Assembly: GCF_030068615.1 (NCBI RefSeq)
Contig: NZ_JASJOC010000007.1
Coordinates: 62,001-126,000 of the forward strand
Source of the DNA: Halostagnicola sp. A-GB9-2
GTDB lineage: Archaea; Halobacteriota; Halobacteria; Halobacteriales; Natrialbaceae
Reading direction: 5' to 3'
Length of the DNA stretch: 64,000 bases
Below, in pieces: positions 42,900-47,541 of this stretch (its first letter is position 1; each line of letters opens with the position of its first letter). The position numbers and the translations under genes were made by a program. The notes below the pieces were generated by a model. That model saw only the letters and a program-made list of their open reading frames with translations, was not told where the DNA came from and ran no database searches.

Positions 42900-42919
42900 A
42901 CACCACTATGTCCGCTGTT
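42900..42919 (-). repeat. Origin repeat 1
   Basis: Minus-strand AACAGCGGACATAGTGGTGT. Confidence 0.8.
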
Positions 42920-42943
42920 TTTCTTCAACGTCAACCGCTCAAG

Positions 42944-42963
42944 AACAGCGGACAAGGTGGAGT
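42944..42963 (+). repeat. Origin repeat 2
   Basis: AACAGCGGACAAGGTGGAGT. Confidence 0.75.
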
Positions 42964-42978
42964 TGATTGGCCAACCAT

Positions 42979-42998
42979 AACAGCGGACATTGTGGTGT
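42979..42998 (+). repeat. Origin repeat 3
   Basis: AACAGCGGACATTGTGGTGT. Confidence 0.8.
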
Positions 42999-43070
42999 CC
43001 ACATGGGCAAAATTGGGATGGAAAAGGGACGTACTATTTCCTCAAGTAGTGGAAGGGAGCGAGATCACCC

Positions 43071-43090
43071 ACACCACCTTGTCCGCTGTT
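43071..43090 (-). repeat. Origin repeat 4
   Basis: Minus-strand AACAGCGGACAAGGTGGTGT. Confidence 0.8.
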
Positions 43091-43118
43091 CCGATGAAAT
43101 TCACTCATTGGTTAGTAG

Positions 43119-43138
43119 AACAGCGGACAAAGTGGTGT
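43119..43138 (+). repeat. Origin repeat 5
   Basis: AACAGCGGACAAAGTGGTGT, the consensus form. A degraded further copy (GTAACGGACAATGTG) follows at 43153-43167. Confidence 0.8.
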
Positions 43139-43430
43139 CCAAAGGAACAGTTGTAACGGACAATGTGATAGTACCTAATTTTCAGATATTTCTTCGAACC
43201 GGACGAAAGGTATAGTAAAATGCGTTCATTACGTCGGTATTGGCAGATAGGAGAAGACATCCATTCGTCTGCCTCTAAATTCCAATCCCGGGATTTATCC
43301 GTTTTCGAAAGATGCAGAATGTCCGAATTAGAGGATAGGACGAGGTCACCAATGCGGTGTGTTCCACACTCTTCCTAAAATACTCCTCCAACGATATTAG
43401 GAATAACTACACACCACCTTACGTTGTACA

Positions 43431-43455
43431 CACCCACCCCACTTTGTCCGCTGTT
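43431..43455 (-). repeat. Origin repeat 6, long form
   Basis: A 25-bp minus-strand element: the core AACAGCGGACAAAGTGG followed by the G-rich end GGTGGGTG. It is identical in inverted orientation to repeat 7. A partial copy lacking the core (ACACCACCTTACGTTG) precedes it at about 43410. Confidence 0.85.
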
Positions 43456-43647
43456 CTGACCAGAGCATGTGGGTGGGCTGTTGATCGATAGGAAGTGCCG
43501 AAAATATCTACCTAGGACCAGATGATATTCACTACACATCCAATGAATATAATCAATAAGGTACAGTACGGACTAATCTCTCAGAAGAGGTTATAAAACT
43601 TTCTACCCAATAAACCCCATTTCTCTCCCCCGCTTCTTCTTCACTAT

Positions 43648-43672
43648 AACAGCGGACAAAGTGGGGTGGGTG
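43648..43672 (+). repeat. Origin repeat 7, long form
   Basis: The 25-bp plus-strand partner of repeat 6, with the same G-rich extension. The pair brackets the AT-richer 43456-43647 segment. Confidence 0.85.
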
Positions 43673-43701
43673 TGTTTTCCCGTTTATTATAAAGTAAACA
43701 G

Positions 43702-43716
43702 AACAGCGGACACTCC
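43702..43716 (+). repeat. Origin repeat 8, partial
   Basis: AACAGCGGACACTCC: core intact, G-rich half diverged. It lies just upstream of the initiator gene promoter and could mediate autoregulation. Confidence 0.6.
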
Positions 43717-43727
43717 GGACGCGGTGG

Positions 43728-43735
43728 TTTTATAA
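43728..43735 (+). promoter_or_regulatory. TATA-like box of orc1/cdc6
   Basis: TTTTATAA about 33-40 nt before the ATG at 43768, implying a short leader of roughly 10 nt. Confidence 0.5.
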
Positions 43736-43767
43736 CCATCCATGATAACGGTCTGTTAAGAAAACGA

Positions 43768-45045
43768 ATGGGTCTATTCGAACGCGACACAGAAATATAC
43801 AAAAATCGCGATGCGCTACGCGAGGACTATCAACCCGAAGAGTTGGTCGGACGTGACGAGGAGATTCAGATGTATCAAGCATCACTTCAGCCAGTAATTA
43901 ACGGAGAACAACCGAACAACGTCTTCCTCTATGGAAAAACGGGTGTCGGAAAAACGGCTGCGACGAGATATCTTCTTTCACATCTTGAGGAAGATGCGAG
44001 CCAGTACGACGACATCGATCTCAACCTCACGTTTCTCAACTGTGACGGCCTAACCTCGTCATACCAAATCGCGACTCGACTCGTCAATGAACTCCGCGAA
44101 GAAACGAATCAGATCAGTACGACCGGATATCCACGAGCGACCGTTTACGAAATGCTCTGGGACGATCTCGATTCTCTGGGAGGAACCAACTTAATTGTTC
44201 TCGACGAAGTCGATCACGTCGAAGACGATTCGATTCTCTATCAACTTCCTCGAGCGCGCGCAAATAATAATCTCAGCGATGCTAAGATCGGTATTATCGG
44301 AATTTCGAACGACTTTTCATTCCGCGACGATCTCTCACCGAAGGTCAAAAGCTCTCTTTGTGAACAGGAGATTCATTTTCCGGCATACGATGCAGGAGAT
44401 CTCCAGAAAATCCTCGAGCAGCGCGCGGAAGTCGCGTTCCACGATGGTGTCATTGACGATGCGGTGATTCCGCTTTGTGCTGCGTACGGAGCGAAAGATG
44501 CCGGTGATGCTCGGCAATCGATCGACCTCCTCATGAAAGCAGGTGATTTGGCTCGCGAAGAAGAGGTAACCCAAGAACAAGCAAACGAAATCATCATCAC
44601 TGAAGAACACGTCGAGGCAGGACGCCACGACCTGGAACGAGGTCGAATAGAGGAAGGGATTAACGGCCTTACCCAACATGGACATCTCGTTTTGTACTCG
44701 CTTCTCACGTTACACCTGCAGGATGAAACACCGATCCGATCACGGGACGTCCGCCCGCGATACACGAACTTCGCACAGCGGGCGGGACGCGACCCGCTCG
44801 TTCCACGCCGAATGCGTGATCACCTTTCGGAACTCGCGATGCTCGGCCTCGTCTCTGTTACAGAACGGAATGAAGGGAGACGAGGTGGGACGTATCGGGA
44901 ATACACGCTCGATATGGATATCGAGTTAATTCTTTCTGCGTTAGATGACATTCTCGAGGATGTTGGCGTTCACGATTCTATCCAGAAATATATGTCTGAT
45001 GAAAACTCCCAAAGTGAAGACACATCATTATTGGAGTTTCAATAA
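43768..45045 (+). CDS. Orc1/Cdc6 replication initiator
   Basis: A 425-residue AAA+ protein that binds origin repeats and loads the MCM helicase. Walker A GKTGVGKT is at 56-63, Walker B LIVLDEVD at 142-149 and sensor 1 GISND at 178-182. A sensor-2-type segment DAGDARQSIDLLMKAGDLA follows. The C-terminal third carries the winged-helix DNA-binding domain (HLVLYSLLTLHLQDETPIR, then RMRDHLSELAMLGLVS and RGGTYREYTLD). Length and order match complete archaeal Orc1/Cdc6 proteins. The repeats directly upstream are its likely binding sites. Whether this is the sole initiator of the replicon cannot be told from the window. Confidence 0.95.
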   Translation: MGLFERDTEIYKNRDALREDYQPEELVGRDEEIQMYQASLQPVINGEQPNNVFLYGKTGVGKTAATRYLLSHLEEDASQYDDIDLNLTFLNCDGLTSSYQIATRLVNELREETNQISTTGYPRATVYEMLWDDLDSLGGTNLIVLDEVDHVEDDSILYQLPRARANNNLSDAKIGIIGISNDFSFRDDLSPKVKSSLCEQEIHFPAYDAGDLQKILEQRAEVAFHDGVIDDAVIPLCAAYGAKDAGDARQSIDLLMKAGDLAREEEVTQEQANEIIITEEHVEAGRHDLERGRIEEGINGLTQHGHLVLYSLLTLHLQDETPIRSRDVRPRYTNFAQRAGRDPLVPRRMRDHLSELAMLGLVSVTERNEGRRGGTYREYTLDMDIELILSALDDILEDVGVHDSIQKYMSDENSQSEDTSLLEFQ

Positions 45046-45550
45046 TATAATTTACTGCCCGTTCTTTCGACAACTAACCGTTCGCCAGACTGCTATTGTC
45101 TTTGAATAGTCTACTGACTTTGATCACAAAACTTTCTCCTAAAGTACTGTCTCTCTTGTATACTAGAGTAAACGTAGGGGATGGGAACTATCCGCTCGAA
45201 CAGCGGACGGAGTGGTGTAGTGAACTGACTGTCTGTGGTTAATTTACGGTTGATTGTCGCAGTAGTCTGGTTCGAGTCGCGTACGGTGCCGATCGCTATC
45301 GTACGTGTCGACTCGGAAGCTGTCGTATGAGGTGACCGAAAGTGATCCGTCACACTCTGTCTCGTCCGATATCCACTACCTCAGCACCTCTATCAACTAC
45401 TTCCGCTCCACTCATGGCGCAGGTTCATACACTCTGGAGGCGTCTACCTAGCGAGGAGAACGTGATGACCACCAACCCCCAAACTGAGACGGCTGCGGTG
45501 CGTTATTCCACTTGCCATCTATCAGAATTCTGTGAATTGCAGGTGCGAAG
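45046..45550. other. Intergenic region downstream of orc1/cdc6
   Basis: Contains one further origin-type repeat (45199-45218). The plus-strand frame 45342-45554 touches the next gene start but has no recognisable domain and I do not call it. No RNA gene seen. Confidence 0.45.
45199..45218 (+). repeat. Origin repeat 9, downstream of the initiator gene
   Basis: AACAGCGGACGGAGTGGTGT, about 150 bp after the orc1/cdc6 stop codon, showing that the element family brackets the gene. Confidence 0.8.
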
Positions 45551-46708
45551 ATGACTGAACACGAACTCACAGGAAACCGAACTGAATTCCAGGGATCGTC
45601 GACGCCTGCAGAGATGACTTCATCAGAGCCGACTCAATCTCCCCCCTCACCTACTCCGGCTAAGGACGATCGGACTCGAAATCGGTCGTTCGGGGCTTTG
45701 GACGATACGGCACTCGAGAGCAAGCAGGTGACCGATAGCGTTCCACTCGCAATCGAGACCAGCGGCCTCGTCAAACACTTCGGCGAGACGAAAGCCGTCG
45801 ATGGAATCGACATGGCAGTTCCAGCGGGTGGTATCTACGGCCTCCTCGGGCCGAACGGTGCGGGCAAGACGACCACTATTCGCATGCTCGCGACGTTGCT
45901 ACAGCCCGACGAGGGAACGGCGAACGTACTCGGGCACGATGTCGTCCGCGAAAGTGACGCAGTGCGATCCAGCGTGAGCATGACCGGACAGTTCGCGTCG
46001 GTAGACGAGGATCTCACCGGGAACGAGAACCTCCGCTTGCTGGCACGACTGTTGGGCTACTCGAGGTCACGATCCAAGGAACGAACTGCTGAACTGATCG
46101 ACGCCTTCGGGCTGACCGAGGCGGCGACGCGTCAGGTGAAAACGTACTCGGGCGGTATGCGACGACGGCTCGACATCGCGGCGAGCATCGTCGTCACACC
46201 CGATTTGCTCTTTCTCGACGAACCGACGACGGGTCTCGATCCACGAAACCGAAACCAGGTCTGGGATATCATCCGGGCGCTCGTCGATAATGGGACGACG
46301 GTACTTTTGACCACGCAGTACCTCGACGAGGCCGACTACCTGGCCGATCGGATTGCGGTTATCGACGATGGAAGAATTATCGCCGAAGGAACACCGAGTG
46401 AACTCAAATCCTCGATCGGCTCCGGAGTACTGAACGTCCGATTACGCGATCCAGAACGTCGAGTGGATGCCGAACGGCTGCTAGCTGAGATACTCGACGC
46501 GCCCATCGAGATCGACTCTGATCCGGTGGCGCTTTCAGCGCGGATTTCCGACGCCGCAAACGCCGCAAACGCGTTCGAAGTACTCTCTCGATCCGGGATC
46601 GAAGTCACGGACTTTGCGCTCGGACAGCCGAGTCTCGACGAGGTCTTCCTCGCTCTGACTGATCGACCAGCTACCGACGAATTGGGGGAGGGAGGGAATT
46701 CTCGATGA
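45551..46708 (+). CDS. ABC exporter ATP-binding protein (DrrA type)
   Basis: A 385-residue ATPase of the daunorubicin-resistance (DrrA/CcmA-like) group. An N-terminal extension of about 65 residues, rich in Ser, Thr and Pro, precedes the nucleotide-binding domain. Walker A GPNGAGKT is at 100-107. The signature [16 protein letters not shown], Walker [14 protein letters not shown] and the [10 protein letters not shown] switch follow. The last 100 residues form the DrrA-specific C-terminal domain ending [16 protein letters not shown]. It powers export of a hydrophobic compound with the permease encoded next; the stop overlaps that start by four bases. Substrate unknown. Confidence 0.92.
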
Positions 46709-47541
46709 CGGTTTCGAACGAGTCCGACGAGCCGGACGTCGAAATGCTACAGTCAGCGGTGGCGACCGGGGATCGACCAGACGGTCCGAACGCCGTCTCC
46801 TCGTCGCTCACGTTCGGCTGGCGGGCGTTGCTGAAGATCAAACACGTCCCCGAGCAACTGTTTGACGTGACCGTCTTTCCGATCATGTTCCTGCTGATGT
46901 TCACATACCTGTTCGGCGGTGCGCTGGCTGGTTCGACGGGTGCGTACCTGCAGGATCTCTTACCGGGTATCCTCGCGATGACGGTCGTGTTCATCACGAT
47001 CTACACGGGGGTTACGCTGAACAACGACATCGACAAGGGCGTCTTCGATCGCTTCCGAACGCTACCGATCTGGCAGCCGTCGGTTATCGTCGGTGCACTG
47101 CTCGGCGATGCGGTCCGATACACGATCGCGTCGACGCTGGTGATCGTTCTCGGTCTGATACTTGGATTCCGACCGGAAGGCGGGGTAATCGGAGTGCTGG
47201 CGGCGGTGGCGCTCCTGTTGGTGTTCTCCTTTAGCCTGTCGTGGATCTGGACCGCACTCGGGTTCGTTATGCGCTCGCCCGAGTCGCTCATGGGCGTGAG
47301 CATGATGATCCTGTTTCCGCTGACGTTCGTCAGCAACGTGTTCGTCGACCCCGAAACGATGCCCGGCTGGCTCGAGGCGTTCGTCGATATCAACCCGGTT
47401 AGTCACCTCGTGACGGCGATGCGCGGGCTGATGCACGGAAGCGCCACGGCCGGAGAGATTGGCGTGGTGCTCGCAATGTCCGTCGCGCTCGTGGTCGTCT
47501 TCGGGCCGATTACCATGTACCTCTTTCGCACTTCGACGTAG
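46705..47541 (+). CDS. ABC-2 type exporter permease (DrrB type)
   Basis: A 278-residue membrane protein with six predicted helices. It has the N-terminal amphipathic region and the [17 protein letters not shown] first-helix pattern of DrrB, the [19 protein letters not shown] block and the C-terminal signature region [28 protein letters not shown] (core NPVSHLV). It forms the transmembrane part of the exporter with the upstream ATPase (ATGA overlap). Such pairs often provide drug or lipid export in haloarchaea. Nothing in the sequence fixes the substrate. Confidence 0.92.

Follow-up and report, generated by a model that had tools for sequence, protein, structure and literature searches.

The region around the orc1/cdc6 gene in the analysed window (64,000 nucleotides of Halostagnicola sp. 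A-GB9-2) is very probably a megaplasmid replication origin of the oriP-cdc6K type, whose initiator would also repress its own gene through a tandem of half-boxes in the promoter. As an origin it is an ordinary, further example of a published type; the promoter tandem may be the part of the locus that is new. The following features were recognised:

42900..42919, minus strand: short ORB, exact match of the genomic box
42944..42963, plus strand: short ORB, inward-facing pair with the box at 42900
42979..42998, plus strand: short ORB, exact match of the genomic box
43071..43090, minus strand: short ORB, exact match of the genomic box
43119..43138, plus strand: short ORB, inward-facing pair with the box at 43071
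43428..43455, minus strand: left long ORB beside the spacer, G-string outward; perfect 28-bp inverted repeat with 43648-43675
43456..43647, no strand: candidate DNA-unwinding spacer, 192 bp; 58% AT, best 60-bp window 70% AT
43648..43675, plus strand: right long ORB, G-string outward; perfect 28-bp inverted repeat with 43428-43455
43703..43727, plus strand: composite promoter element and predicted Orc operator; ACAGCGGAC and ACTCCGGAC (9-bp tandem half-boxes) followed by GCGGTGG
43728..43735, plus strand: TATA-like sequence TTTTATAA, 33-40 nt upstream of the ATG; a TATA-like match adjoins the element in 40/42 loci
43768-45045, plus strand: orc1/cdc6 initiator of the Cdc6K/oriP family, 425 aa, complete ORF
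45199..45218, plus strand: downstream ORB, possible titration site; exact match of the genomic box

Origin boxes

The core AACAGCGGAC is present in nine exact copies around orc1/cdc6: 42910(-), 42944(+), 42979(+), 43081(-), 43119(+), 43446(-), 43648(+), 43702(+), and 45199(+). All nine sites that the preliminary description had placed around this gene, eight upstream in both orientations and one downstream, were matched exactly. The chance expectation for exact copies in 2.3 kb is ~0.006. With at most one mismatch, 19 matches were counted in the window versus a shuffle mean of 5.1, and none of 100 dinucleotide shuffles scored as high. The same description spoke of nine 20-bp elements. This is correct for eight of the nine core sites, which carry the full box AACAGCGGACNNNGTGGNGT; the site at 43702 consists of the core alone and represents the first unit of the promoter tandem. 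It was rejected as a free eighth upstream box, since it abuts the diverged unit ACTCCGGAC (43712-43720) within the composite promoter element.

Across the whole genome (4,679,536 bases, 38 contigs), the exact box AACAGCGGACNNNGTGGNGT has eight matches, all at the orc locus and none elsewhere, while the bare 10-mer occurs 37 times. The scattering of the element away from orc1 that had been named as evidence against an origin was, therefore, not seen in this genome; in relatives, a few lone box copies lie away from orc genes. A text search of the literature for the letters of the box returned, among the matches listed, only primers and unrelated matches. Phase tests of the box spacings were weak (best period ~9.5-9.75 bp), and a claim of helical phasing was dropped.

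The two long boxes end with GTGGGGTGGGTGTGT, the G-string looked for in haloarchaeal origins. Boxes of the left long class were found at 41 sites in 42 family loci, with the long-box consensus AGAACAGCGGACAaAGTGG.G.GGGTGTGT over the 42 loci; the remaining upstream boxes are conserved over only ~20 bp. In 40 of these 42 loci the long boxes form an inverted pair whose G-strings point outward from the spacer between them (median length 206 bp). The spacer in the window is moderately AT-rich in comparison with the ~40-42% AT over most of the window, and the family spacers (40 loci) average 53% AT versus 40% for the locus. The spacings of inward-facing box pairs fall into two clusters, 39-42 and 48-51 bp, and the distance from the right ORB to the promoter site is 62-63 or 72-73 bp.

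By homology and anatomy, the Orc1/Cdc6 encoded at 43768-45045 would bind both long inverted ORBs, melt the spacer, and load MCM. The short upstream ORBs and the downstream ORB may hold extra initiator, in an accessory or titrating role. Binding of the initiator to the half-box tandem in its own promoter would repress orc and couple the initiator level to the copy number of the origin.

The initiator and its family

The predicted protein contains the Pfam domains Cdc6_lid and Cdc6_C, scores 433 bits against TIGR02928, and matches Sulfolobus Orc1-1 (2qby_A) in phmmer with an E value of 1.8e-62. The Walker A, Walker B, sensor 1, and GDAR motifs are invariant or nearly so across 19 aligned relatives. 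An AAA+ protein with lid and winged helix is, thus, encoded next to the boxes, and the description of the locus as an initiator gene beside origin boxes holds for this 425-aa product and the eight full boxes. An AlphaFold model (mean pLDDT 66, shallow alignment) was set aside as evidence. A viral source of the initiator was rejected, the best phage matches being at most 27% identical.

Identity values are 95.5% with the Halostagnicola larsenii orthologue, ~72-91% with plasmid-borne copies in many genera, and 72% with Cdc6K of Haloarcula hispanica pHH400. The latter value lies below the convention of at least 80% identity for a family (PMC3528665), despite the clustering of the two proteins: the initiator falls into a clade of 21 that includes Cdc6K of pHH400 (support 85/84; recovered in 84% of bootstrap trees), separate from the remaining initiators encoded in the same genome.

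A search for the element beside Orc1 homologues in other haloarchaea, suggested in the preliminary description, found it adjacent to the orthologous gene at 42 of 42 haloarchaeal loci. Scans of these loci with a position weight matrix built from the window boxes gave 228 hits upstream and 120 downstream of the gene, and the reversed matrix gave no hit in either zone. Downstream ORBs, one or more per locus, are present in 38 of the 42. None of the 37 loci taken from genome contigs is located on a contig longer than 584 kb, and two of these contigs are complete plasmids. Downstream tandem ORB arrays with periods of 34 bp (Halobaculum saliterrae) and ~39 bp (a metagenome-derived genome) occur at loci L035 and L045 and are candidate titration arrays.

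The promoter tandem

The aligned upstream regions share the arrangement AGAACAGCGGAC-ACTCCGGAC-ACGGTGG-TTTTATAA. A tandem of two to four half-boxes is present in all 42 loci, with 52 of 53 unit spacings being exactly 9 bp, and is directly followed by a TATA-like sequence in 40 loci. Another TATA-like sequence closely precedes the composite element in the window.

Sister initiators, ~42-61% identical to the query, have different box cores, and their promoter tandems usually follow their own core: ACAGCGGAA, ACACTGGAC, ACACTCGAC, GCACTGGAA, GCACACGAA, and ACAGACGAA. When cores were read from the flanks without the promoter, the own core was the best or tied-best match of the tandem in 16 of 17 loci, and the best tandem lag was 9 bp in 17/17 (one tie). 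None of 5000 label shuffles over these 17 loci reached the observed sum of own-core matches. When each core was represented by a single locus, the real assignment of cores to tandems ranked first among 5040 permutations; it came second when the exceptional locus L183 replaced L178. These statistics come from related loci, and the pattern defining the cores was chosen after the loci had been seen. Two sister loci (L184 and L187) have no clear promoter tandem, and promoter geometry varies: in the AACAGCGGAA sister group the TATA-like box is located upstream of the tandem.

The sequences compared demonstrate that the tandem is present and that it matches the ORB core. These findings suggest that initiator production is under the initiator's own control, via the tandem. 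Most simply, a single protein would recognise both the box and the promoter, from which autoregulation is predicted; repression of orc by its own product is what we infer. We also lean towards a broader reading, namely, that plasmid-type Orc1/Cdc6 proteins of haloarchaea share an operator next to the core promoter, built of two to four own-core half-boxes in 9-bp tandem, and that this operator would co-evolve with the ORB and autoregulate initiator dose, the origin, downstream boxes, and promoter forming one copy-number circuit. No report of autoregulation of a haloarchaeal or other archaeal replication initiator was found in the openly accessible papers searched.

The replicon

The window is part of a contig of 184,764 bases (C36), in which no tRNA genes were found and the only orc match is the gene described here. 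This contig is collinear with the plasmid of H. larsenii XH-48 over 456-573.7 kb and onwards across the record start up to 76 kb. In both, the neighbours of orc are a dehydroquinase gene upstream and an M24 peptidase gene downstream. Genes for the ATPase and permease of an ABC transporter (45551-47541) separate orc from the M24 peptidase gene in the window; H. larsenii lacks this pair, and orc and the peptidase gene adjoin there. The complete circular H. larsenii plasmid (573,680 bases) also has one orc only.

Maxima of the AT and MK disparity curves of the H. larsenii plasmid are located 3.7 kb from orc and the minima ~240 kb off, and none of 1000 block shuffles gave so strong a signal; GC disparity of this plasmid is flat (p 0.36) and, like GC skew, uninformative as an origin marker. 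On pHME505, the AT and RY disparity peaks are 1.9 and 2.2 kb, respectively, from the orc of this family, those of pNG700 (GC, AT, and RY) 5.5-17 kb from the family orc, and the AT maximum of the Natrinema zhouii plasmid is 65 kb from orc. Disparity in three of these four complete plasmids, and more loosely in C36 (AT maximum ~13 kb from orc), agrees with an origin at orc. A separate replicon, which the preliminary description had considered possible, is well supported by sequence comparison, because C36 is collinear with a 574-kb circular megaplasmid that has a single orc and a strand-composition extremum 3.7 kb from it.

Comparison with known origins

The origin oriP-cdc6K of pHH400 replicates autonomously (PMC3528665). 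It is the sole active origin of this replicon according to marker frequency and disparity, and is essential, as it could not be deleted (PMC3936714). Together with its counterpart on pNG700 of H. marismortui, it shares with the window the 20-bp element including AACAGCGGACAAAGTGGGGT, the long inverted pair before the gene, the downstream boxes, and the megaplasmid location. Exact matches of the box pattern occur in pHH400 at 1304, 405128, 405215, and 405360; the ORB is, thus, the same. The number and spacing of the other boxes differ, and the promoter tandem of pNG700 has three half-units versus two in the window. Novelty of the element is, accordingly, not supported: it is that of the published oriP-cdc6K type, and family-specific ORBs are the published norm in haloarchaea (PMC3528665, PMC3936714). 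That the initiator and its box form a distinct pair is supported. The element was also said to be unlike the chromosomal ORB, and its ungapped similarity to the sequences taken as oriC1 ORBs is indeed no better than in shuffles (p 0.28, best ungapped match 13/25, and p 0.68), the reference sequences at 184 kb of contig C33 being recognised by pattern only, away from orc.

The sister families with AACAGCGGAA boxes, comparable to TAACAGCGGAAACAGTGGGGTGGGGGGGT of Hla_3512/HQ2959A (PMC3528665), have a related initiator (~53% identity), a G-string box, and a 9-bp promoter tandem, but their core ends with GGAA instead of GGAC. In one of them (L053), four boxes follow the gene and one precedes it. 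Boxes on either side of the initiator gene are also known from oriC2-cdc6E of H. hispanica, where the downstream boxes (oriC2D) lower origin activity (PMC3936714). The latter origin, however, is chromosomal, and the window has a single downstream box, for which titration can be proposed by analogy. Bacterial dnaA, with its DnaA boxes, and Sulfolobus Orc1-2 resemble the window in having their own binding word in their own promoter. Autoregulation of an initiator has been published for DnaA. Orc1-2 binds its own promoter but is a damage-response regulator and not an initiator, and no 9-bp tandem is described for it (PMC9738581).

The assignment adds one more megaplasmid origin to a functionally proven family that is present in many genera across haloarchaea. 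The promoter tandem yields a testable prediction on how archaeal initiator dose may be set, and the paired box and operator sequences provide material for Orc1/Cdc6 recognition rules.

Alternative readings

The locus might have the structure of an origin and yet be dormant, the replicon being copied from another one. Dormant origins with intact boxes are known from pHM500 and the chromosome of H. mediterranei: the only active origin of pHM500 adjoins cdc6M, while oriP1-cdc6L has good boxes and is dormant (PMC4595724). We regard cdc6M as probably a member of the Cdc6K/oriP family, because pHM500 has two orc genes and the disparity extremum is located at the family member. Dormancy is nevertheless improbable for the window, given that no second orc match was found on C36 or the H. 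larsenii plasmid, that the disparity extremum points to this very orc, and that activity and essentiality are known for the pHH400 homologue (PMC3936714).

It is far less probable still that the boxes serve chiefly as operators for orc transcription and form no origin at all. One element does lie in the promoter, with a core that tracks the box core, but the boxes reach ~870 bp upstream and occur downstream of orc as well, the published plan of origins has long inverted boxes flanking an AT-richer spacer, and a homologous fragment replicates autonomously (PMC3528665). A narrower objection concerns the tandem, which, instead of being an operator, could be left over from a duplication of boxes or serve as an additional loading site. 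Its units are built from box cores, and versions with three and four units occur. The near-invariant 9-bp spacing, the fixed position beside a TATA-like sequence, and the match to the own box core in sister families make this objection doubtful, and we retain the operator reading.

Other loci in this genome and in relatives

Another orc1/cdc6 gene of this genome, at G000:C3:19822-21018 (L003), contains two in-frame stops and is flanked by nine copies of TTTCCGGTGA/TTCCGGTGAA; it is probably a decayed origin. The oriC1-type Orc1/Cdc6 at G000:C33:157608-159407 (L104) has its Walker A and Walker B motifs separated by a long low-complexity insertion rich in Ser, Asp, and Gly. Two classical-ORB-like sequences in direct repeat, GTGGAAACGAAGGGGG and GGGGAAACAAAGGGGG, are located at G000:C33:184344-184376 (L103), ~25 kb from the nearest orc found. 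On pHME505 of H. mediterranei (NZ_CP039140.1, 337293-337653), family ORBs are clustered between orc and a ParA operon, off the core origin.
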